Source: a virus. From it: a stretch of 40,979 nt of DNA. The stretch covers positions 1-40,979 of IMG/VR virus record IMGVR_UViG_3300047446_000092. One strand, given 5' to 3'. Below, piece after piece: positions 21,887 through 40,606 of the stretch. The position numbers were made by a program, and so were the translations under genes. How positions within the stretch are numbered: the first letter of the stretch is position 1; each line of letters begins with the position of its first letter. The notes beneath the pieces were generated by a model. The model was not told where the DNA came from, did not search any database, and saw only the letters and a list, made by a program, of their open reading frames with translations.

Positions 21887-21917
21887 AAAGGCCCGCCCTC
21901 TCGGGCGGGCCTTTTTT
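21887..21917 (+). terminator. Strong rho-independent terminator after capsid gene
   Basis: GGCCCGCC-CTCTC-GGGCGGGCC followed by six T. Long GC-rich stem and clean T run. It would sharply reduce transcription into the neck genes, raising the capsid to tail ratio. Confidence 0.9.
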
Positions 21918-23520: not shown

Positions 23521-24368
23521 TGCCGACCCTCCAACAGACCTGGTCTGAACTGGAGGCCTACGTCGAGCAGATCTTCTTTTCTCAGCTCACGGACAAGGTC
23601 GCCGGCTACGCCGACGATCTCGCCCAGCAGATCGAAAAGGACATCAACTCCGCGCTGAACACGTTCTTCAAAGACCTGGCGGGCATGATCCAGCCGGGGC
23701 TTAACGCCATGCCCGACGAGCTTCAGCTCTACTCGAACGGCTCGTGGCCCGAGCTGAGCGAGCGCTACTACTACTGGAAGAACCCGTCTAACAAGGGTCG
23801 CCAGCACGAGAGCAGCGACTTCTTCATGCTGAGCGAGCTGCCGCGCATCAAGCGCAACTCGACGAAGTCCAAGCAGCAGTGGCGTCAGAAGAGAGTCAAG
23901 ACCCTCAAAGAGCTGAAGGCTAACCCGAGCTTGCGCATGCGCCTCGCCAAGCTCGCCAACCCGAGCGCCTACTACGGGAAGGTGGCCGTCACCATCGAGT
24001 CGCACACGAAGGTCAACCGGGGTGGCCGTCGCCAGTACAAGGCCGGCACCTTCCGCCAGGGCGTCAACGTGGGCGGGCAGACCATCAAGTCGGCGAGCGA
24101 CTACGTGACGTTGACTGTGAACTGGCTCCCGGCGATCAGTGGCCTGGACCCTGACCGGCGCGGCGTCACCGAGAACCCTCAACCGCGCAGCGAAGCGCAA
24201 GGCCTCCAGCAGCTCCCGGAGGACGTGAAGACCAAGCTGCTCAACCACGAGCACAACGAGATGGGCACGGCATATCGCCCGCTGCTCGGCCCGTACATGC
24301 TGTGGTATCAGGACACGGTGATCCGCAGGATCGTCAAGTCCGCGATCTCCACCTATGGACCAACGTAA
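23520..24368 (+). CDS. Tail completion / neck protein (282 aa)
   Basis: MPTLQQTWSELEAYVEQIFF; helical N-terminal half with a Tyr-rich turn (SERYYYWKNPSNKG), basic middle, and a C-terminal segment ending QDTVIRRIVKSAIS. It resembles the HK97-gp10-like family that joins the neck to the tail. Larger than typical (~130-200 aa). TAATG overlaps on both sides. Confidence 0.6.
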   Translation: MPTLQQTWSELEAYVEQIFFSQLTDKVAGYADDLAQQIEKDINSALNTFFKDLAGMIQPGLNAMPDELQLYSNGSWPELSERYYYWKNPSNKGRQHESSDFFMLSELPRIKRNSTKSKQQWRQKRVKTLKELKANPSLRMRLAKLANPSAYYGKVAVTIESHTKVNRGGRRQYKAGTFRQGVNVGGQTIKSASDYVTLTVNWLPAISGLDPDRRGVTENPQPRSEAQGLQQLPEDVKTKLLNHEHNEMGTAYRPLLGPYMLWYQDTVIRRIVKSAISTYGPT

Positions 24369-24829
24369 TGATCACGACCAACGCCTACGGCGACCACCTG
24401 TCCAGCCTGCTCAAATTCTGTGGGGACTTCGCAGAAGAGATCAACGTGCCGGGGCAACCCAAGTTCCAGACCGTCTACCTCGACGCGTACGAGGACTATG
24501 AATCGCTGCCGGCCGGGTCTCTGATCGGCGTCGCGGGCTATACGATCGGCATCGACGAGCACCTGGCCCACGTCACGCTGATGATCGGCCTGGCGACCGA
24601 GAACGATGCGAACGAGTTCCGCTTGACTGCTGCAATGGGGAAGTTGCTCAATCGTCTGCTGCCCACCAAGCGGATCGACGTGGTCGATTCGGAGACTGGT
24701 GAGCAGCTAGGTCAGATGACAATTGAAAACGGCATCAGAACGATGCCGTCGAGTGGGGCGATGGGAAGAGCCATGAAGTATGTCGCTTTCACGGCGTCGT
24801 CCGATGTTACCGTGGACCTGAGTTCGTGA
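24368..24829 (+). CDS. Tail terminator-like protein (153 aa)
   Basis: Start MITTNAYGDHLSSLLKFCGD at 24368, sharing one base with the upstream stop. Alpha/beta pattern (FRLTAAMGKLLNRLLPTKRIDVVDS...IENGIRTMPS) like lambda U-type terminators that cap the finished tail tube. It lies directly before the tail-tube gene on the sense strand. Its last 23 bases overlap the antisense Arc-type gene tail to tail. Confidence 0.65.
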   Translation: MITTNAYGDHLSSLLKFCGDFAEEINVPGQPKFQTVYLDAYEDYESLPAGSLIGVAGYTIGIDEHLAHVTLMIGLATENDANEFRLTAAMGKLLNRLLPTKRIDVVDSETGEQLGQMTIENGIRTMPSSGAMGRAMKYVAFTASSDVTVDLSS

Positions 24830-25001
24830 GCGAGCGGATCAACTCGACATCGGACTTCGTGCCTGCGTCGAGACCCGCTTCGATCAACGTGATCAGCTCC
24901 GCATTCTTGGTGCGCCGGTTGACCTTTGCACGCGCAATAACCTGCTCGTGAACTTCGGGGGGGAGTCGCAACGTTGATGCGACCATATCTTGAACGTCCA
25001 T
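24807..25001 (-). CDS. Arc-type ribbon-helix-helix repressor (64 aa), antisense
   Basis: MDVQDMVASTLRLPPEVHEQVIARAKVNRRTKNAELITLIEAGL: a beta strand (TLRLP), helix, turn with a NRRTKNAE motif and a second helix, exactly the Arc/MetJ ribbon-helix-helix layout. AAGGAG seven bases before the ATG sets the start. It would bind DNA as a dimer of dimers. It is the only leftward gene among the virion genes and converges with the tail terminator. The palindrome 25045-25071 upstream is its natural operator candidate; it would repress itself and possibly the tail-tube gene. Confidence 0.85.
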   Translation of the reverse strand: MDVQDMVASTLRLPPEVHEQVIARAKVNRRTKNAELITLIEAGLDAGTKSDVELIRSLTNSGPR

Positions 25002-25044
25002 ACCTGGTTCTCCTTTAAACCAATAAAAACCTTTGATTCGCGAC

Positions 25045-25071
25045 GGTAGCACACGTAGCATCCGTGCTACC
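25045..25071. promoter_or_regulatory. Operator candidate GGTAGCAC-N11-GTGCTACC
   Basis: Perfect 8-bp inverted arms, with a third GTAGCA half-site in the middle (25055-25060). It lies between the divergent Arc-type and tail-tube genes. On the minus strand TTGAAA (25082-25077) could be a -35 of the Arc promoter overlapping the operator. Multi-half-site, 27-bp organisation fits a tetrameric ribbon-helix-helix repressor. Confidence 0.65.
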
Positions 25072-25096
25072 AGAATTTTCAACCGGAGAACTAACG

Positions 25097-25888
25097 ATGG
25101 CTGGTGAAGCAAAGTCAAATAAGTTCATGCTTGGCGCGGCCACCGTGATGATCGGCCCGCAAGCAGAGCTGTTCAACCTGAACCCCGACGAACACTCGAT
25201 CGGTCTCGTCAAGAACTTCTCGATCAGCGGACAGCCGGCATACACCGAACTGACGCAGGGCGTGAAGAACTCGGTGGTGTATTCGGTCATGACCGGCAAC
25301 CCGGTCACGGCGACGATGGAAGTCTACGAGCACACGTCGAAGAACCTGGCCTACGGCCTGGGTCTGGACGGCTCCGCGATGGACCCGATCGCAACGAAGA
25401 CCACGACCAACGCGGATGTCCCGGCGAGCGTGGCCGGCACGAAGTTGATCCCGCTCGCCTCGGTGACGGACCTGGTGGAAGGCGACTGGATTCAGGCAGC
25501 AGCCCCCGGCACGACCGACAAGCTGCTGGTCGCTCGCGTGACGGATGTCGATGCGGTCGCGAAGACGGTCACGATCGCCGACGAGCAGTCGTTCTCGTAC
25601 GCTCTGCCGATCGGCACGACTGTGCAGAAGGTCAACGTGGTCGGTATCGGCTCGAAGTCGGATCAGCCGTTCCTGTCGGCCAAGATCGTCGGCAACCTCG
25701 CGGACGGCACGCCGGTCGCGCTGCTGATCCCGAAGATCCGCATCACGGGTGGCTTCACGCTGGCGTTCAAGACGGACTCGTTCGGCAACCTGCCGTACAA
25801 GTTCCAGCCGTATGACCTGGTCTCCGCCGACCCGTTCTACGACACCTTCCTGCCGTTCGGCCAGGCGATGCTCGCCGCAGCGAACTAA
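25097..25888 (+). CDS. Major tail tube protein
   Basis: 263 aa from MAGEAKSNKFMLGAATVM; CCGGAGA SD nine bases upstream. An upstream in-frame start would cut through the operator. The N-terminal ~80 residues and the C-terminal part (ITGGFTLAFKTDSFGNLPYKF) are beta-sandwich-like. The middle (ADVPASVAGTKLIPLASVTD) adds an insertion domain of ~75 residues that might be exposed on the tail surface. It is the building block of the tail tube between terminator and chaperones. A strong terminator follows. Confidence 0.75.
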   Translation: MAGEAKSNKFMLGAATVMIGPQAELFNLNPDEHSIGLVKNFSISGQPAYTELTQGVKNSVVYSVMTGNPVTATMEVYEHTSKNLAYGLGLDGSAMDPIATKTTTNADVPASVAGTKLIPLASVTDLVEGDWIQAAAPGTTDKLLVARVTDVDAVAKTVTIADEQSFSYALPIGTTVQKVNVVGIGSKSDQPFLSAKIVGNLADGTPVALLIPKIRITGGFTLAFKTDSFGNLPYKFQPYDLVSADPFYDTFLPFGQAMLAAAN

Positions 25889-25924: not shown

Positions 25925-25958
25925 AAGCCTCACGACTGTAAAGTCGTGAGGCTTTTTC
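25925..25958 (+). terminator. Strong rho-independent terminator after tail tube gene
   Basis: AAGCCTCACGAC pairs perfectly with GTCGTGAGGCTT (12 bp) around TGTAAA, followed by TTTCTTT. It would lower transcription of the downstream tail genes relative to the tube protein. Confidence 0.9.
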
Positions 25959-26698: not shown

Positions 26699-29600
26699 AT
26701 GGCCAATCAAGAGCAGGTAAAGAACTTTGAAGTGGGTCTCGGCCTCACTGAAGACACCCTTCGTCAGTATTCGCAGCTGAAGGATGTCCTTGGTGTCATC
26801 TATGGTCAGCTGACCAAGGTGAAGCAGGCTGCTGCCGAGATCCAGATCAGCGGCGTCGGCGCACGCGGACCCAATGACCCTGCTCTTTCCCAGCAGCTCG
26901 CTGCCCTGCAGGCCGAGCTGCGCACCCTCCTTGGCTCCATCCGCTCCGGTGGCCCGAACGCTCAGCTGAACTCAGCCATCATCTCTGGCCAGCAGCAGCA
27001 GAAGCAGTTCTCAGACGGTCGCCTCGACCTCGAATCGGCTCGCGTCGCAAACGCGCAAGCTGAGCGTCGCGTGATGCTCGCCAAGCAGGAAAACATCGCT
27101 GCTGAAGCGAAACGCCAATACAACGCCGAAGAGATCGGCATGACGCGCGAGATCGAGCAGGCAACGCTGCGCGTTGCTGCCGCGCAGCGCGCGCTCACGC
27201 AAGCCAGGCTCGAGGAGGACACCATCGCGGAAGGCGCGTCCAAGCGCGCTATCCGCGATTCGCAACAGCGTCTGCAACAGATCCGTGAGGAGCTGGAGCT
27301 GCGTGAGCGCGGCGCCCGCGTGCGCCTTGGCAACTCCCTCGACAGTGGCAGTGACGCATCGAGCGCGCAGGCCCAGCTCAAGGCCGTGCAGGAAGCGCGC
27401 GCCTCGCTCTCGGACTCCATCCGCAACGCAGCCGGTGCGATCCGTACAGCCGAAAACGAAGCGAACCGCGCTACCGCCCAGAAGGCCGCGCCGGTCAGCA
27501 CCGCGCATTCCGCCGCGCTCCGTGAGGACCGCACTCGGGACTATCAGGCCCAGCTCAGCGAAGCCGATGTCGGCCCACCCGTTGATCTCTACTACAAGGA
27601 GCTTCAGCGTCAGGCGCGCGCACGCGAGGCTGCGGCTGAGAAGGCGCAGGCTGAAGAGCGCGCCGCGTTCGAACGTATCCAGAGCCAGATCCGGCCGGCA
27701 CAGGTCGAAGACCGTCGCCGTCAGCAGGAGGCTGAAGAGCTGGCCGCGCAGATCGGCCCGCCTGTTGACCTCTTCTACAAGGAACTTCAACGCCGCTCGC
27801 GTGAGCTGACCGCTGCTGCCCAAAAGGCCAAGCAGCTGGAGCAGGCCGAGTTCAACCGGCAACAGAGCCAGATCCGTCCCGCGCAGCTGGAAGACCGTAA
27901 GCGTCAGGATCAAGCCGAGCAGATGGCCGCTCAGATCGGCCCGCCTGTCGAGCTGTTTTATGCCGAGCTTCAGAAGCGCGTGAAGGAGCTGGAAGCTGCT
28001 CGCGTGAAGGCTGAGCAGGAGATGCAGAAGCAGCAGGAGGCGTTCAACAAGGCCGGTGCGAAGTACGGGCCTGACCGCAACCAGCTCCTGAAACTGCGCG
28101 ACGCGCAGATGGCCAAGGAGCAGCAACAGCAGGAGTCGAACTCCGACATCCGCCAGCGCCGACACGACCTGACGCTCGGCGACGGCGGCGCTTCGATCGC
28201 CATGACGCAGGCCGCGCTGACCACGAACTACTTCGTGACGCAGGGCATCGTGCAGGCGTTCAAGTCGGCCATCCAGTTCACGGTCGAATACGAGGAAGCT
28301 CTCGCCCACCTGAAGACGATCGCTGGTGCGACCGAAGGCCAGCTCGGGGATCTGCGCGCCACGGTCGAAGGTGTGTCGAACGTGACGCGTTACGGCGCGG
28401 TGGATCTGACGAAAGCCGCAGCGGCCCTGTCGGAAACAGGCGTCACGGTGAGCCAGATGGGTGTCGCCCTCAAGGGCGTCGCCGACCTGGCCACGGCCAC
28501 GGGCGAAGACTTCAACAAGACGGTAGACACCGTCACGGGCGCGCTCGGCGCGTTCAAGCTGTCGGCTACCGACACGGTCGACATCACGAACATGATCGCC
28601 CAGGCGGTCAACTCGTCGCGCCTGACGATGGACAAGCTGAAAACGTCCATCGAAACGGCTGGGGAAACCGCAAGCGAAGCCGGCGTCTCGTTCAAGGAAA
28701 TGCTGGCCGCGAACGTGGCCATCACGAACACTGGCACGGCCTCGGGCGCGACGCTCGGGGGCGGGCTGCGCTCGCTCCTGACGGACCTTGAAAAACCGAG
28801 CGACAAGTTCAAGGCCACGCTCGAACGCGTCGGCCTGACCGAAGACGACATCAACGTCAAGACGCAAGGCCTGTATGGCGCGATGTCCAACCTGCACGAC
28901 GCCGGCTTCGATGCTGCTGACGCGATGCAGTCGTTCGATGCGCGCGCCGCGTCGGCGTTCACTGCCCTCTCGGGCAACCTGAAGGCCTTCGCGGAGTTCG
29001 AGACGGGCCTGAACTCGACGGACGCTGCGGCGCGCGCCAACGCCGACCAGATGAAGACGCTGGGGGCGCAGTACGACCGCTTCAAGAACCAGACCAGCCT
29101 GCTGGTCGGTGAAGGCTTTAAGCCCCTGCTGGACGGCTTCAAAAGCGTCGTGTCGCTTACGGCGGATGCCGAAACCAGCATCCGCAGCATGAGCTTTGCA
29201 GTAGAAGCGGCCGGCACGGTCCTGGGAGGCGCTACGATCGCCCTGGGCGCCCAGTACGTAGGCAAGCTCGGGGGCGGGCTTATCGGCCTCGCCACGGGCG
29301 GTTTCGCGGCTGCTGAGGGCATGGCTGCTATCGGGGCTTCGCTCGGCCTCTGGGTCGGGGTCGCGGCGGCTGCTGCGGCTGGTGTAGCGTTCCTGATCAA
29401 CCGGCTCGGAGATTCGAAGAAGGCCTTCGAAGACCAGATGACCGCCGTCAACACGGCCAAGGACACGCTCACCGAGTCGAAGCAAGCCTACGACAGCATC
29501 GGTACGACGATTGAAACGCTCACGGACAAGATGGATGCGCTCAACAAGCATCCGGAGATGCTGAAGCGCGAGATCGATGATGTGGGTAAGCAATTTGAGA

Positions 29601-32600
29601 AGTACGGCGAGCAGCTGGACAAGAGCGCGATCCAGAAGACCGAAGACCTGATCACGGTCCTCAAGAAGCTGCACGACCAGCTCGGCCAGAAGTACGAGCT
29701 GAGCACGGTCATGCTCGGCCAGCAGCTCGACCTGATGACGGTGCAGGCCCAGCAAAAGGTGCAGGAGACGAACTCGCAGTTCGGGCGCAACGCCTTCAAC
29801 GGCGCAACCGACAAGGTCGACCGCGTGCGTCCTGCGAGAAGCACGGAATACGTGGAAGGCACGGTCGGTGGCCTGGCAGGAGACGACTCGACGTACAGCC
29901 TCCTACCCAATGGCAAGCAGTCCAAGGGCTTCGCGGATCTCGGCACAGGCCTGAACAGCGCCAACCTGGCGCCGTTCGTCCAGCTGCTCGGGGACGTAGG
30001 CGTCAAGGAACTCGACAAGGTCACGGCGGGCTTCAAGGCAGCGCTCGATCCGAACGCAACGGCAGACGTAGGCAACGACCCGGAGAAAGCACAGGCATAC
30101 CTGAACCTGCTGGGCCAGGCCAATACCGGCCTGACCGCCGCACAGATCAAGCTCGGGCAGCAGCGCAACGCAGTCGGCACGGACGACGCGACCAAGGCGC
30201 GCATCGACGCACTGGTACAGATCTTCGGCAACGCAGCAGAACAGCTGAAGAAGTCTGTCGAGGCGGGGCAAACCCTGGCTGGAAACCTCAGCCAGAAGGC
30301 AGTCACGTCTGCGGATGTTGCAAACATCCAGTATGAGAACAACAACCCTGGCGCCGTCGCACGTCGCACCGAGATCGAGAAGATCATCCAGCGCTCGGTC
30401 GGGTTGCGCACGGCTGGTTTCAGTAGCAACCGGGACATCGACGATATCTGGGCCGCGCAGATCCAGGCGGAGAGCCGGGGCAAACAGTTCGACGCCAACG
30501 GCAGGACACTGACCTCCAGCAAGGGCGCGATGGGCGTCGCTCAAGTCCGTCTTTCGACCGGGCCTGAAGCTGCACGTCTGGCGGGTGAGGACTGGAACGA
30601 GAACAAGTTCCGAAACGATGCAGCCTACAACGAGAAGCTGGGCAAGGCCTACATGTCGCACATGCTCGACCTGTATGGCGGAAACAACACGCTCGCACTG
30701 GCGGGTTACAACTGGGGTCAGGGCAACGTCAACAATCTGCTCAAGCAGAAGAACCCCGATAAAACGACGAACGACTTCCGCGTCCTGTCGAACAACCTGA
30801 CCGAATCCGACTTCATCGACAAACTGCCTCCTGAGACTCAGCGCTACATCGCGCGTATCGGCGGAAGCGGTGCAGGTAACGTAGGCCGTTTCGAGCGACT
30901 GAACAGCAACATCGGCGTTGCGTCGCAAGTGCGTGACCTGAACGACCTGGTCCAGAGCCTGACCGCACAACGCGACGCGAACAAGGGCAACGCTCCGGAA
31001 GTCGCATCGATCGAGAAGCAGATCGTCGCTGCCAAGACGGAGCTGGCAGCATGGGAAAAGAAGTTCGACGACGCTCGCGTTTCCGCCGCACCGGCTCTGA
31101 AGAAAGCGTCCTCAGCCGACGAGGCTGCGCTGAACGCTCGGGTCAAGGCGCTTGACGCCCAAGCCGGCAACTCGCGCAACATCGACGAAGTACAGGAGAT
31201 CGGCAAGCAGGCCGATGACACGATCGCGGCAGTGTATGGACGCAAGATCGACACGCTTCGCGCGATCAGCCCGAAGGTCAAGACGGCAGATGGCACGCTC
31301 GACTACACGTCTGAAGTGCGTCAGCAGATCGAATCGCTCCAAAACGAGCGTGACGAAAAGCTGAAGGCGCAGGACGAGGCGATCAAGAAGCACATCACGT
31401 CGATCAAGGATGCGCTGGACAAGGCCGAGCTGAAGAAGAACCTCGAAGCCGAAGCTCAGACGTTCAAGGACGAGATGTCGGACCTGAAGCAGCGTCAAGC
31501 TACGGAGTCTACGGCACACAGCATCTCTCTGAAGCAGGCTGCACAGCCCCTGAAGAACGACCAGTCGCAAGCCTCGTATATGTCGGATCCGCGCTATTCC
31601 GCGCGCTTCAGCCAGGTACAACGCACTGCCCTGTCGTTCCAGACGGCTGCTGATAGCGATCTGAAGGATCAAGCCACGCTGGCCGAGGACCGTCGCCACC
31701 AACTGCAACTACAAGCTGAGGAAGAACAGGCAAAGGCTGCGTTCTCGCGCACTGGTTCCAAGTTGACGGATCGGCAGGACGCGCTGGCTCAGTCGAGCGA
31801 CGACAAGGAGCAGGCGCGGGTTCAGCAGCAGATCAACCAGCTGCTCGACGAACAACGCACTCAGGAAGAGAAGGTCACGGCAGCATCCGACAAGCGCAAG
31901 AAGAACGCCGAAGACATCCTGGAGCTGGAAGAGAAGATCAAGTCCAAGAACGCCGCCCCGATGGGGCTGATGGACGGCATCAACGCAGCGAACGCGAACT
32001 TCCTGCAACAGCACGACCTGATGGCCAACGCGATCGACGGCTACAACAGCCTGCTCGGCTCGGCGACGAACTCGTTCGCGCAGTTCTTCGACGACATCGT
32101 AACCGGCTCGAAGTCCGCAGGTCAGGCGATCGGCGACTTCGCACGGTCGTTCCTGAAGGCGATGTTGCAGATCCTCGAACAACAGGCCGCGCTCGCCACG
32201 GTGAAGGCGATCATCTCCGCGTTCGGCGGCGCCTTCGGGCCGTCAGCCACCCCCGCAGCTGGCTCTGGCTCGGCCCCGGTGGCAACCGGGGGCTTCGACT
32301 CAGCCGGCACGGCCTTCGCTATTCAGGGCGGCTCGGTCGGTAACGGCATCGTGACGCGCGGCGGGGGCTTCACCCGCTTCGCGGGCGGCGGCTCGGTCAA
32401 CGGCTCGATGACGACCCGTGACTCGGTCAACGCCCTGCTGAAACCCGGTGAGTACGTGCTGAACTCGGATGCAACCGACATGGTTGGTACGGACTTCCTC
32501 GACGGCCTCAACTCGAAGGGCAACCGGATGATCTCGAAGAGCACCCCGGCTCCGCTGCCGAAGCGCGACACAAAGCCCTCCTTCACGAACGTCTGGGTCG

Positions 32601-32719
32601 TGGCACCGGACCAGAAGCCGCAGATGGGGCCGAGCGACGTGGTCGCCATCATGAGCGACGACATCATGCGCGGCGGCACCACGAAGCAACTGATCAAGCA
32701 AGTAGCGATGGGACAATAA
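26699..32719 (+). CDS. Tape measure protein with lytic transglycosylase domain
   Basis: 2006 aa. It follows the chaperone stop by two bases and sets tail length. Residues ~1-500 are coiled coil. A 61-residue unit starts at 291, 352 and 413 (each opens with VGPPV/IGPPV-DLFY-KELQ) with an exact 183-bp period. Residues ~505-720 match the phage tail tape-measure core (EALAHLKTIAGATEGQLGDL, SETGVTVSQMGVALKGVAD). A hydrophobic patch (~840-900) could cross the membrane. Residues ~1245-1365 are an SLT-type transglycosylase: catalytic Glu1258 (QAESRG), GAMGVAQV, ALAGYNWG. The C-terminus is coiled coil plus a Gly/Ser tail. It would cross the periplasm at infection. A long tail (~300 nm, scaling from lambda) is predicted. 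Confidence 0.92.
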   Translation: MANQEQVKNFEVGLGLTEDTLRQYSQLKDVLGVIYGQLTKVKQAAAEIQISGVGARGPNDPALSQQLAALQAELRTLLGSIRSGGPNAQLNSAIISGQQQQKQFSDGRLDLESARVANAQAERRVMLAKQENIAAEAKRQYNAEEIGMTREIEQATLRVAAAQRALTQARLEEDTIAEGASKRAIRDSQQRLQQIREELELRERGARVRLGNSLDSGSDASSAQAQLKAVQEARASLSDSIRNAAGAIRTAENEANRATAQKAAPVSTAHSAALREDRTRDYQAQLSEADVGPPVDLYYKELQRQARAREAAAEKAQAEERAAFERIQSQIRPAQVEDRRRQQEAEELAAQIGPPVDLFYKELQRRSRELTAAAQKAKQLEQAEFNRQQSQIRPAQLEDRKRQDQAEQMAAQIGPPVELFYAELQKRVKELEAARVKAEQEMQKQQEAFNKAGAKYGPDRNQLLKLRDAQMAKEQQQQESNSDIRQRRHDLTLGDGGASIAMTQAALTTNYFVTQGIVQAFKSAIQFTVEYEEALAHLKTIAGATEGQLGDLRATVEGVSNVTRYGAVDLTKAAAALSETGVTVSQMGVALKGVADLATATGEDFNKTVDTVTGALGAFKLSATDTVDITNMIAQAVNSSRLTMDKLKTSIETAGETASEAGVSFKEMLAANVAITNTGTASGATLGGGLRSLLTDLEKPSDKFKATLERVGLTEDDINVKTQGLYGAMSNLHDAGFDAADAMQSFDARAASAFTALSGNLKAFAEFETGLNSTDAAARANADQMKTLGAQYDRFKNQTSLLVGEGFKPLLDGFKSVVSLTADAETSIRSMSFAVEAAGTVLGGATIALGAQYVGKLGGGLIGLATGGFAAAEGMAAIGASLGLWVGVAAAAAAGVAFLINRLGDSKKAFEDQMTAVNTAKDTLTESKQAYDSIGTTIETLTDKMDALNKHPEMLKREIDDVGKQFEKYGEQLDKSAIQKTEDLITVLKKLHDQLGQKYELSTVMLGQQLDLMTVQAQQKVQETNSQFGRNAFNGATDKVDRVRPARSTEYVEGTVGGLAGDDSTYSLLPNGKQSKGFADLGTGLNSANLAPFVQLLGDVGVKELDKVTAGFKAALDPNATADVGNDPEKAQAYLNLLGQANTGLTAAQIKLGQQRNAVGTDDATKARIDALVQIFGNAAEQLKKSVEAGQTLAGNLSQKAVTSADVANIQYENNNPGAVARRTEIEKIIQRSVGLRTAGFSSNRDIDDIWAAQIQAESRGKQFDANGRTLTSSKGAMGVAQVRLSTGPEAARLAGEDWNENKFRNDAAYNEKLGKAYMSHMLDLYGGNNTLALAGYNWGQGNVNNLLKQKNPDKTTNDFRVLSNNLTESDFIDKLPPETQRYIARIGGSGAGNVGRFERLNSNIGVASQVRDLNDLVQSLTAQRDANKGNAPEVASIEKQIVAAKTELAAWEKKFDDARVSAAPALKKASSADEAALNARVKALDAQAGNSRNIDEVQEIGKQADDTIAAVYGRKIDTLRAISPKVKTADGTLDYTSEVRQQIESLQNERDEKLKAQDEAIKKHITSIKDALDKAELKKNLEAEAQTFKDEMSDLKQRQATESTAHSISLKQAAQPLKNDQSQASYMSDPRYSARFSQVQRTALSFQTAADSDLKDQATLAEDRRHQLQLQAEEEQAKAAFSRTGSKLTDRQDALAQSSDDKEQARVQQQINQLLDEQRTQEEKVTAASDKRKKNAEDILELEEKIKSKNAAPMGLMDGINAANANFLQQHDLMANAIDGYNSLLGSATNSFAQFFDDIVTGSKSAGQAIGDFARSFLKAMLQILEQQAALATVKAIISAFGGAFGPSATPAAGSGSAPVATGGFDSAGTAFAIQGGSVGNGIVTRGGGFTRFAGGGSVNGSMTTRDSVNALLKPGEYVLNSDATDMVGTDFLDGLNSKGNRMISKSTPAPLPKRDTKPSFTNVWVVAPDQKPQMGPSDVVAIMSDDIMRGGTTKQLIKQVAMGQ
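27569..28080 (+). repeat. Three 183-bp (61-residue) repeats in the tape measure
   Basis: Units begin at 27569, 27752 and 27935, in register at both DNA and protein level (GPPV(D/E)L(Y/F)Y(K/A)ELQ). The third copy is diverged after ~30 residues. The first two are the most similar. Confidence 0.85.
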
Positions 32720-35025: not shown

Positions 35026-38000
35026 TGAAACTTGACAAGGACACCCAAGGCCTGCGCGGCGCGGGCGGCGGCTCAAGCGGCCCGCACCGCACCGACGACA
35101 ACCTCTTCTCGCGAGACGTGGTCGAGATGGTGCTCGCGCTCGGCGAAGGTCCGATCCGCGGCCTCACGAACGGCATGAAGTCGTTTTATGTAGGAGGCAC
35201 GCCGCTTCAATCCGAAGACGGCTCGGTCAACTTCGAGTCGTTCAACCTCGGGGTCATGCGCGGCCACGTTGGTGACCCGCCTGTCAACTACCAGCTCGGC
35301 GGCGAAACCTCGAACACCGCCGTTGGCGTGCGACTGTTCCAGGGCACTTGGGTCACGCGCCAGACCGACAGCTCACTGGTCAATGTCGTCGACCAGCTCC
35401 AGGTGCGGATCCAGTTCTCCCAGCTGTACGTGCAGAACAACGATGGCTCGTACAACAACACGGCGCAGTTCGACATCCAGTATCGGCAGTCGTCGAGCAA
35501 CGGGGCGTGGGCCGCGTACAGCGGAAACACCGTATCCGTTGAGGGCAAGACCTCGGCAGGCTACGTGGTCGACTACTGCTGGGATGTACCGCGCGTCAAC
35601 GACACCTGGGACATCCGCGTCCGCAAGCTCAATCCGGATAGCTCGAACACCGACTTCTGTGACTTGAGCTGGGAAAGTTTCCAGATGGTCACGAAGGGCA
35701 ACCGGACGTACGACCGCGTCGCCCTCATGCACCTGGTCGCCCTGGCCACGAGTCAGTTCACGTCGATCCCGGACTTCGGCGTGGACGTGGACGGCCTTGA
35801 GATCCTGATCCCGACGAACTACAACGGTGACACCCATACCTACGACCTGTCGGTCCCGACCTGGGATGGCTCGTTCAAGCAGGCATGGTGCAACAACCCG
35901 GCGTGGATTCTGTACGACCTTTTGATGAACCCAAGCTACGGCTTGAGGAAATACTACCCGTGGTTGACGTGCAACCGCTTCGACTTCTACGACGCGGCGC
36001 AGTGGTGTGACACACCTGTTCCTGACGGCAAAGGGGGCACGCAGCCTCGCTACACGTTCAACATGGCGATCAAGGACCAGCAGTCCGGTCTCGACATGCT
36101 GCAATACGTGGCAGGCTCCTTCGGCGCGGTGATCTTCGATGACGCCACGGGCAGCGTCCATCTTCGCGTGGATAAGTGGGAAGAGCCGCAGCTGCTCTTC
36201 AGTCCCGAGAACGTGACGCCGGATGGCTTCACGTACACGTACACGGACATGACAACCCGGTACAACGATCTCGAAGTCAACTTCGTGAACCCGGATCTCG
36301 ACTGGCAGAAGGATATGCGGCCGGCTCAAGATCCGGACCACATCGCACTCAACGGGCACATCCCCTCAACGTTCGAAGCGATCGGCTGCACCGACGAGCA
36401 TGAAGCGCTCCGACGCGCGTACTACCGCCTGATCACGGCAACGACCGAGTGCGCAACCGTGAGCTTCATCGTAGCGCGCCTCGGAGCTATCGTAGATCCG
36501 TACAGGCCGATCTACGTCGCGGACCCGACATCCGGCTTCTCGATGCCCGGTCGAGTCAAGTCGATCTTCAATGGTGTGATCTTCCTCCGTGATCCGATTT
36601 ACTTCACGAACGTCCAGAACTACACGCTGAAGCTGCAAACTCGTATTGGCCTAGTTCCTCTCGTGGTTCGTCCAGCAGCTATCGGCGCGATCTATGAGTT
36701 GACGATCGTCTCAGGCATCGTGCCGCCGAACGCTGTCCCCGACCGCACGGTCTTTACCATTGAGGACAACGGCAGCTTTGGCATCGCGAAACCGTTCCGG
36801 GCAGTCGCTGTCGAGCCGGTAGACAACAACCCGAACTCGTTCAAGATCACAGCGATCGAGATCAACGTCAACAAACAGTGGGCGGCGGATAACTGCGTGC
36901 CGATCGGCAGCGTCCCCTACTCGTTCAAGAACCCGTTGATTCCCCCACCGCCGACGAAGATGGTGCTGGCCTCTGGCACCAACGAGATGATCATCGGTCA
37001 GGACGGGTCGATCATGGCTCGGATCTTCGCATCCTGGGACGCACCGGGCAGCGCGCTGATCGACCACTACGATGTGGCGTGGAAGCCGTCGAACCAGTCA
37101 ACCTGGACCTACACGACCAGCTCGGGCGAGAGCATCTTCCTCGCGCCGTGTGTCACGCGTCAGCTCTACGACATCACAGTCTGGGCTGTGAATGCCTTTG
37201 GCAACCGCAGCGCGCAGCTGTCGGTGTGGGGTTATAAGTGCGTCGGCAAGGATGACCCCCCCAGCAACGTCGAGAACTTCACGATCCAGCGACGACAGAA
37301 CGACGTTCTGCTGAAGTGGGATGCAATCAAGGATCTGGACCGCGCCGGTTATGAGATCCGCCTCGGCACGAGCTGGGATACCGCGACCGTCCTGGTGACC
37401 GACTACCAGGCGACGCAGTTCGCATGGACGACCGACACGGGCGGCGTCTACACGTTCCTGATCCGCGCGATCGACAGCAGCGGCAACCAGTCACAGCTGG
37501 CCACCAAGCAGCAGATCAACCTGCAAGGCCCATCACCTGTGAAGGGCGTCATCGCCATCCAGTCGGGCAACCGCATCGAGTTCCGCTGGACGCCGAACCC
37601 CGAAAACAACATCCTCCAGTACGAGATCCGGGAGGGCGACACTTGGGCCACGGCGGTGTTCGTTGCCCAGACGAAGGCGACCACATTCGGCCTCACAGCT
37701 GGCGCGGCCGGCACGCGCAAGTTCTGGATCAAGGCAATCGGCTCACCGGGCATCTACTCGGATAAGGCGACGTTCGTCACGACCGATGTCGCGCAGAGCG
37801 ACAGCACGAACATCATCTACACGAGCGACGAGCTGGCCAACGGCTTCCAGGGCACGCGCTACAACATGATCCCGTACGGCAACACGCTGCGGATGGATGA
37901 CGGAAAGGCGAAGGCCGAATACATCTTCAGCGTGAACCTGCCGACCGACTTCCGCGCGCAGAACACGCTGTTCGTCGGCCTCGACGCGATCGTGGACTTC

Positions 38001-39090: not shown

Positions 39091-39151
39091 AACTCCTTTG
39101 GCGCACTGGCCTGCGTCGTTAAAATTCGGATAGCGAAAGGACACCACCACG
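39091..39151. promoter_or_regulatory. Fibre-gene leader
   Basis: 61-base gap. AAAGGA (SD) is followed by CACCACCAC (39142-39150) one base before the ATG. AT-rich TTAAAATTCGG is the only possible promoter element. Confidence 0.45.
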
Positions 39152-40606
39152 ATGCAAGCATATCAACAGATACCAGACAGCCAGCGGATCTCCGATTCGC
39201 TCGCGCCGCTGCTGAACAACGACCTCACCGCGATCTCGCGCAACGCGGGTCAGGCCTACCCGACTGCCGGTCTCGTCGTCGGGATGCCCTTCTTCAACTC
39301 CACCGAGAAGAAGCTGTACCGGCTTGACAGCCTGTCGCCTATCACCTGGACGTTGGAGATCGACTTCAACCGCGCCTTCGCCTATGCGGACGATGTGGCC
39401 GCGGCGGTCGCCAACGCCAACGGGCGTGTGTCGAAGGCCGGCGACACGATGCTTGGCTACCTGACCCTGAACGGCGACCCGAACCAGGCGCTACACGCCG
39501 CGCCGAAGCGCTACGTGGATGCGCAGCGCGACGCCGCGATCGCGATCGCTAATCAGGCGGTGCAGCGCGGCGGTTCGACGATGATCGGCCCGCTGCTGCT
39601 GGCCAGCGACCCGACGCAGCCCGCGCAGGCCTCGACGAAGAACTACACCGACTACCTCTACAACGCGCTGAACAACGCGAAGCTGAACCGCAGCGGGGAC
39701 ACGCTCAACGAGGTCTATAACAACGGCTGGTATCGCTCCAACGGTGCAGTGGGCTGGTACAACCAGACGTTTGGCGGTGGCATCCATATGCAGGACGGCT
39801 CGTACGTGCGCGTCTACGGTGGCAAGGGCTTCCAGACCGACACGCACACGCTGGAGCAAGGCACGGGCGGTATCTGGACCGCACGCTACGGCTGGCTGGA
39901 GAATTACTTCGCGCGGGCGGATTCGAACGGCGCGCTGACCTCAGTCGGCACGGTGAACAGCAGCAACCTGCCGTATGTACAGGCCGACCAGTTCTACCTC
40001 CAGCAGAGCGGCCGGCAAGTGCAGCTCGTGCGCGTCTTCGCGAACTGCAACTGCAACTGCGCCTGCACATGCTTCCCCGCTGGCACGCGCATCCTGATGG
40101 CTGATCGCTCGTGGAAGAACGTCGAGGACATCCTCGTCGGCGACGTGCTCATGACGCCCCTCGGACCCGAAGTCGTGCTCGATGTCGAGACGCCGATCCT
40201 CGGCGACCGCCGCATGATCGGCTTCGACGACCTGTCGCTGTTGTGGACCGACGACCACGGCTTCTGGACGCGCCGCGACGGCAAGCAAGCCTTTGGCGTG
40301 TACGACAAGCAGTCGTGGCTGCGAGGCGTGGAGCTGGGCGTGGTCAAGGGTCTGCCGAACAACGATGATGTGCGGCTTCTGGACGACCGTCACGACGAGT
40401 TCGCACACATGGACGGCTGGGTTCAACGTAACACCGTGGTCGCGAGCAGCCGTCAGTTCCCGCCCGAGACGAAGGTCTATCTGCCGATCGTCGGCGGTTG
40501 CCACATGATCATCGCTGAGGGTTACGTGGTCTCTGCTGGCGCGAACGGCTTCGACTTCGACTACGACACATTCAACTGGGAAGGCCTGAAAGATGCTGCT
40601 GCATAA
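39152..40606 (+). CDS. Tail fibre with C-terminal Hint (hedgehog/intein) domain
   Basis: 484 aa. The N-terminal region attaches the fibre (MQAYQQIPDSQRISDS). Two phage-tail-repeat units (GDTMLGYLTLNGDPNQALHAAPKRYVD and GSTMIGPLLLASDPTQPAQASTKNY at ~98-160) are followed by a fibre section. Residues 298-307 are a Cys ladder (NCNCNCACTC). From Cys307 a Hint domain begins: CFPAGTRILMADRSW (nucleophile block), TDDH (366-369, block B) and HMIIAEGYVVSAG (~448). Hint domains cut or splice at the first Cys. There is no C-terminal extein and no terminal HN pair, so N-terminal cleavage or attachment is more likely than splicing. The stop overlaps the next gene. Confidence 0.85.
   Translation: MQAYQQIPDSQRISDSLAPLLNNDLTAISRNAGQAYPTAGLVVGMPFFNSTEKKLYRLDSLSPITWTLEIDFNRAFAYADDVAAAVANANGRVSKAGDTMLGYLTLNGDPNQALHAAPKRYVDAQRDAAIAIANQAVQRGGSTMIGPLLLASDPTQPAQASTKNYTDYLYNALNNAKLNRSGDTLNEVYNNGWYRSNGAVGWYNQTFGGGIHMQDGSYVRVYGGKGFQTDTHTLEQGTGGIWTARYGWLENYFARADSNGALTSVGTVNSSNLPYVQADQFYLQQSGRQVQLVRVFANCNCNCACTCFPAGTRILMADRSWKNVEDILVGDVLMTPLGPEVVLDVETPILGDRRMIGFDDLSLLWTDDHGFWTRRDGKQAFGVYDKQSWLRGVELGVVKGLPNNDDVRLLDDRHDEFAHMDGWVQRNTVVASSRQFPPETKVYLPIVGGCHMIIAEGYVVSAGANGFDFDYDTFNWEGLKDAAA

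Follow-up and report, generated by a model that had tools for sequence, protein, structure and literature searches.

An antisense ribbon-helix-helix gene beside the phage tail-tube gene probably encodes a dedicated repressor of a one-gene transcription unit

What is a gene for a small DNA-binding protein doing on the opposite strand of a phage tail gene block? The question was raised by a window of 40,979 nucleotides, a 41-kb fragment of the virus record IMGVR_UViG_3300047446_000092, in which a first-pass annotation had described an antisense ribbon-helix-helix (RHH) open reading frame overlapping the 3' end of a tail gene. We found the frame, its antisense position and the overlap exactly as described. 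The RHH gene (MDVQDMVASTLRLPPEVHEQ...) occupies positions 24807–25001 of the minus strand, stop included, and has 64 codons for a protein of 64 amino acids. Its start codon is the ATG at 25001, which has a Shine-Dalgarno-like AAAGGAG at 25010–25016 (CTCCTTT on the plus strand); a longer, TTG-started version was rejected as a mechanical extension only. The gene converges on the upstream tail gene (24368–24829, plus strand), and the two 3' ends overlap by 23 bp, with the RHH stop at 24807–24809 and the TGA of the tail gene at 24827–24829. The upstream gene had no PHROG match and is a probable tail terminator by position, a call made from synteny only.

In the other direction, the RHH gene is divergent from the gene for the major tail (tube) protein at 25097–25888 on the plus strand, with a 95-bp spacer between them. 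The tail-tube gene belongs to phrog_28493, has a distant match to the major tail protein family phrog_807, carries a Shine-Dalgarno-like GGAG at 25085–25088, and is followed directly by the tape-measure chaperone, an order shared with Achromobacter phages JWF and 2-1. The tape-measure protein itself (26699–32719, 2006 amino acids) contains what looks by eye like a lytic-transglycosylase-like stretch (IWAAQIQAESRGKQFDANG...). A strong intrinsic terminator follows the tail-tube gene at 25925–25954 on the plus strand. Such a terminator was found within 120 nucleotides after the tail-tube gene in 41 of 71 relatives, when 0.95 would be expected from shuffled sequences, and the records of JWF and Seuss also annotate one there. 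Judged from its sequence signals, the tail-tube gene appears to be a one-gene transcription unit, with its own promoter at 25033–25061 and its own terminator at 25925–25954. Elsewhere in the window, a hairpin that is terminator-like on both strands lies right after the major head protein gene (21891–21906), and the head protein may be a further unit with a dosage of its own.

The RHH protein matched the Pfam Arc profile (PF03869) with 26.6 bits against a curated cut-off of 20.4 (E = 5.4e-6), and AmrZ (2e-6), Arc and Mnt were top-ranked in a profile search against solved structures. An AlphaFold (AF2) model, built as a monomer in which the beta-strand is not formed, reached a pLDDT of 91.6 with helices at residues 15–27 and 32–60. 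Its top solved folds were AmrZ and Arc, with probabilities of 0.98–1.00 and E-values of ~0.05 for this very short chain. Aligned with Arc (Q9, N11, R13), the contact positions of the window protein are A8, T10 and R12. The gene is under purifying selection, with a dN/dS of 0.07–0.20 in nine close pairs and of 0.08–0.16 within the trio formed by the window and its two closest relatives. The pair L097/L100, the tenth, was ignored because unequal N-termini caused misalignment. The window gene is thus a real Arc-like RHH gene by profile and model, and its product is predicted to dimerise and bind DNA. These observations also bear on a reading in which antisense or colliding transcription is what counts, lowering expression of the upstream late genes, with the protein itself of lesser importance. 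The 23-bp convergent overlap and the antisense orientation in nearly all relatives would suit that reading, but strong selection on the protein, together with RHH folds that persist among relatives at 30% identity or less, makes it very improbable.

To place the gene in a wider context, we searched the tail-tube alignment against viral and genome contigs, which together with phage records gave 71 distinct loci. An HMM profile detected the RHH gene at 55 of these. At eight further loci (L058, L067, L078, L079, L080, L082, L084 and L087) the same slot holds an antisense protein of ~110 amino acids, which had no Pfam match; its model (pLDDT 88.8) repeats a strand-helix-helix (beta-alpha-alpha) unit twice, making it a tandem RHH protein. 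With the truncated contigs L064 and L092 left out, the RHH gene is present at 63 of 69 evaluable loci and in the same antisense slot at 62, the sole displaced case lying ~1 kb further upstream of the tail-tube gene (L046, 2758–3024). The gene was undetected at six tail-tube loci (L005, L006, L007, L023, L074 and L088), and its presence or absence requires four changes on the tail-tube tree, a count that predates the assignment of L087 as RHH-bearing. The slot is annotated in JWF, where gp17 is named Arc-like, and in phage 2-1, where the coding sequence is called hypothetical; Caulobacter phage Seuss and Xylophilus phage Lumi have an unannotated RHH frame there. In L003, L090, L093, L094 and L096 the antisense counterparts are ~120–150 amino acids long, with a C-terminal extension that is maybe a second RHH domain. 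The first-pass annotation had proposed looking for the same arrangement in relatives, where it proved to be the rule. Its suggestion of a moron lost support for the same reason, and at nearly all loci scanned among the relatives no terminator was found 3' of the RHH gene.

The tandem form also bears on a possible role in DNA architecture (packaging, partition, or a TraY-like accessory function), for which the spacer would be a mere binding site. The nearest solved structures of the tandem protein were F-plasmid relaxosome chains, which we take to be TraY, and the tandem clade (L067–L087) is predicted to have the same double fold. Moreover, the PHROG matches of the window protein include families named 'partition protein ATPase' next to several Arc-like families. 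However, the gene has a fixed link to the tail-tube promoter and none to the packaging end or the replication origin, and TraY, which acts at oriT and a transfer promoter, is itself also a regulator. No conjugation genes were seen near the RHH locus. We consider a primarily architectural role highly unlikely.

The spacer contains an exact 8-11-8 palindrome, GGTAGCAC-N11-GTGCTACC, over 27 bp at 25045–25071 (plus-strand arms at 25045–25052 and 25064–25071). A third half-site, GTAGCA at 25055–25060 on the same strand, starts nine bases after the GTAGCA at 25046 and overlaps the -10 element of the tail-tube promoter. The first-pass annotation had offered these elements as the operator, and all are present exactly where it placed them. 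Shuffles of the 95-bp spacer gave a perfect inverted repeat of at least 8 bp with a loop of at most 20 in 2.1% of cases, so the palindrome by itself is suggestive only; it stands above chance because of its conserved setting. Of 12 close relatives, 4 keep complete 8-bp arms; the palindrome is perfect only in the window type and L029, being reduced in other close relatives to GGT...ACC, the conserved parts of the left and right arms. Across 24 RHH-bearing clusters, inverted repeats were not enriched relative to shuffles (Fisher p = 0.14). We therefore rejected the exact palindrome as a conserved operator. The palindrome is also unlikely to form a hairpin or act as a terminator in the leader RNA of the tail-tube gene, because it spans the -10 and the predicted transcription start sits inside the right arm. 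Judged by the refuting criterion of the first-pass annotation, a site missing from relatives that have the gene, the palindrome as written fails in part; the shorter boxes pass within the same lineage.

The conserved element is a promoter combined with short ACC and GGT boxes. The tail-tube promoter reads TTGATT-17-TAGCAT on the plus strand, with the -35-like hexamer at 25033–25038, the -10-like hexamer at 25056–25061, and a transcription start predicted near 25068. A strict-rule sigma-70 scan of 20–27 kb of the window returned no promoter, and the call is accordingly based on conservation, not score. All 12 close relatives have a spacer with ACC-N7-ACC including AACCTTTG, TTG-N-TT at the -35, a 17-bp gap and TA..AT at the -10, and in all 12 a GGT and an ACC flank the -10. 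The constant core can be written ACC-N7-AACCTTTG-N9/10-GGT-N9-TA. In the window, the first ACC box (25019–25021, plus strand) lies 10 bp before the second (25029–25031, within AAAACCTTTG) across an A/T-rich linker, ACC-AATAAAA-ACC. Both putative binding boxes are invariant among the close relatives, and the first also persists in the more distant group II. Counted from the inferred start, the boxes fall at about -48, -38, -22 and +2. The more distant L036–L060 group, whose RHH proteins are 30–42% identical to that of the window, keeps ACC...AACCTT...GGT. Distant relatives have a -10 some 30–44 nucleotides ahead of the start codon in modest excess only. Overall, the spacer is more conserved than neighbouring silent sites, with pairwise identities of 0.62–0.97 compared to 0.47–0.77 at fourfold sites of the tail-tube gene and 0.29–0.56 at those of the RHH gene. 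On the minus strand, a promoter for the RHH gene is clear in L004, L052, L071/L073 and L091 and weak in the window type.

Scanning close relatives with complete genomes placed the operator core at the tail-tube locus, plus one 3-mismatch match elsewhere in G004. Its confinement essentially to the tail-tube locus in these window-type relatives fits a local regulator. G001 and G004 each have one copy of AACCTTTG, which is repeated before lysis genes only in Achromobacter-type phages: JWF, 2-1 and L034 have AAAACCTTTGGG with a TAGAAT -10 also ahead of lysis genes, and AAAACCTTTG likewise precedes lysis genes in Achromobacter phages. The recurrence of AACCTTTG in these three phages implies that part of the footprint, possibly including the second ACC box, may be a general late-promoter element. 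A role as global late regulator was rejected, as the operator core is essentially single-copy and AACCTTTG is rare in the window type. In JWF (L105, 33549–33640) and phage 2-1 (L147, 3690–3775), the AAAACCTTTGGG...TAGAAT promoter-like element lies directly 3' of a terminator and before the endolysin gene; its resemblance to the tail-tube promoter could reflect shared regulation or a common late-promoter element. Another promoter-like sequence, GAAACTCCTTTGGCGC-TAAAAT, precedes a tail-fibre gene in the window (39091–39152) and also occurs in G001 and G005, which suggests several single-gene late promoters.

We also compared the boxes with the protein. ACC-N7-ACC accompanies 22 of the 25 loci whose RHH protein has a contact triplet of A, G or S, then T or S, then R, and 1 of the 29 loci with other triplets, the one being a near copy of the window; these counts are dominated by closely related sequences from very few independent lineages. 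A phylogenetic test of contact residues against boxes had too few independent pairs to give support.

Taken together, we consider it probable, from the sequence and the model, that the RHH protein is dedicated to repressing the one-gene tail-tube transcription unit and probably limits itself as well. RHH dimers would occupy the short ACC and GGT boxes (25019–25071) that surround the -35 and -10, keeping RNA polymerase from using the tail-tube promoter. Since the 95-bp spacer is also where the RHH gene starts, they would curb their own production too. In this way, the tail tube, among the most abundant virion proteins, could be delayed or held at the right dose until late infection. The first-pass annotation had likewise proposed control of tail-tube expression, and the RHH fold, the divergent placement, the promoter under operator-like boxes and their conservation all point that way, even though the exact palindrome it relied on is not the conserved element.

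The same boxes could instead serve activation, or activation and repression both as with AmrZ: protein on the upstream ACC boxes (about -38 and -48) would recruit RNA polymerase to a weak tail-tube promoter, and at a higher level it would repress its own gene. AmrZ, the nearest solved relative, both activates and represses, reading a pair of half-sites joined by an A/T-rich linker (PMC3325190). In the window, AATAAAA lies between two ACC boxes ahead of the -35, and the -35 and -10 of the tail-tube promoter are moderate rather than strong. Yet other conserved boxes, the GGT at 25045 inside the promoter spacer and the ACC at 25069 at the start site, are placed so that a bound protein should block transcription, and Acinetobacter relatives lacking the RHH gene keep the tail-tube promoter with a full TATAAT, implying that no activator is needed there. 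We regard activation or dual control as unlikely.

Repression might alternatively be mainly a device of lysogeny that silences the tail-tube promoter in the prophage. Of 21 complete relatives, 15 have a tyrosine integrase, mostly near a genome end, and one relative is embedded in a 290-kb Burkholderia paludis contig. Among the 21, none was detected in JWF, 2-1, Seuss, Lumi, G007 or a Methylobacterium plasmid-borne relative, but all six keep the RHH gene, which makes prophage silencing unlikely as its only role. Furthermore, silencing would reach just one late gene, because the operator core was not found at other promoters. We thus judge a main role in lysogeny to be rather unlikely, and the purely lysogenic switch raised by the first-pass annotation does not sit well with a gene kept in JWF, 2-1, Seuss and Lumi. 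JWF has been called temperate on the basis of relatives in Burkholderia (PMC9959647), which means that the plaque isolates are not proven virulent. A ParA search was positive in 3 of the 21 complete relatives, so life as a phage-plasmid is not general. The Methylobacterium aquaticum plasmid pMaq22A_3p (NZ_AP014707.1; L107, L108), a complete relative of 85,702 bp, is likely a phage-plasmid; it has a partial ParA-like match, no integrase was found in it, and its RHH gene is an unnamed coding sequence at 35474–35710.

Known systems offer partial parallels to the proposed repressor. Arc and Mnt of the temperate phage P22 are small RHH proteins matched by the same family profile, and their operators overlap a promoter beside which the protein is encoded. 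However, they reside in immI and control the antirepressor gene ant, whereas the partner here is a structural late gene, and the ACC/GGT boxes and A-T-R triplet differ from the Arc operator and its Q-N-R. Aca (anti-CRISPR-associated) autorepressors are small regulators that self-limit a strong phage promoter and are comparable in mode of action only, being co-transcribed with a different partner gene; the window RHH gene is divergent, with no anti-CRISPR seen. AmrZ of Pseudomonas, nearest by profile and fold, shares the arginine of the contact triplet and the layout of two short half-sites around an A/T-rich linker, which in the window are putative sites. It recognises GGC half-sites through Lys18/Val20/Arg22 (PMC3325190) and is a chromosomal global regulator, unlike the phage-borne and apparently single-locus RHH protein. 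The positional counterpart is gp17 of Achromobacter phage JWF ('Arc-like DNA binding domain protein', YP_009224023), which is on the same strand with the same boxes, is about 33% identical to the window protein, and is annotated by domain only. No function or operator for gp17 was described in the literature searched.

Likewise, no tail-tube RHH regulator was described in that literature, and the genome paper on JWF (Arch Virol 2017) may already contain a remark on it. The components are of known kinds; what appears undescribed in the literature searched is their antisense placement beside the tail-tube gene, for one gene only and throughout the lineage. A bolder version would have siphoviruses of ~80 kb, both temperate and plaque-isolated, use across their whole lineage a one-gene tail-tube rheostat whose regulator targets only the tail-tube promoter, with specificity and boxes drifting together and possibly a feedback in which free tail-tube or assembly protein releases the repressor. 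We believe this full picture to be unlikely.

Read-through, terminators and translation are usually credited with setting the dose and timing of single structural proteins within a late block. In this family, a small regulator is seemingly dedicated to one structural gene and occupies the same slot across tail-tube proteins down to ~33% identity, with many of its copies in the antisense slot unannotated. Its RHH proteins and their operators form a natural series of pairs in which to follow changes in DNA recognition by the beta-ribbon, and the family makes possible a simple reporter test of gene-specific transcriptional control over virion stoichiometry.
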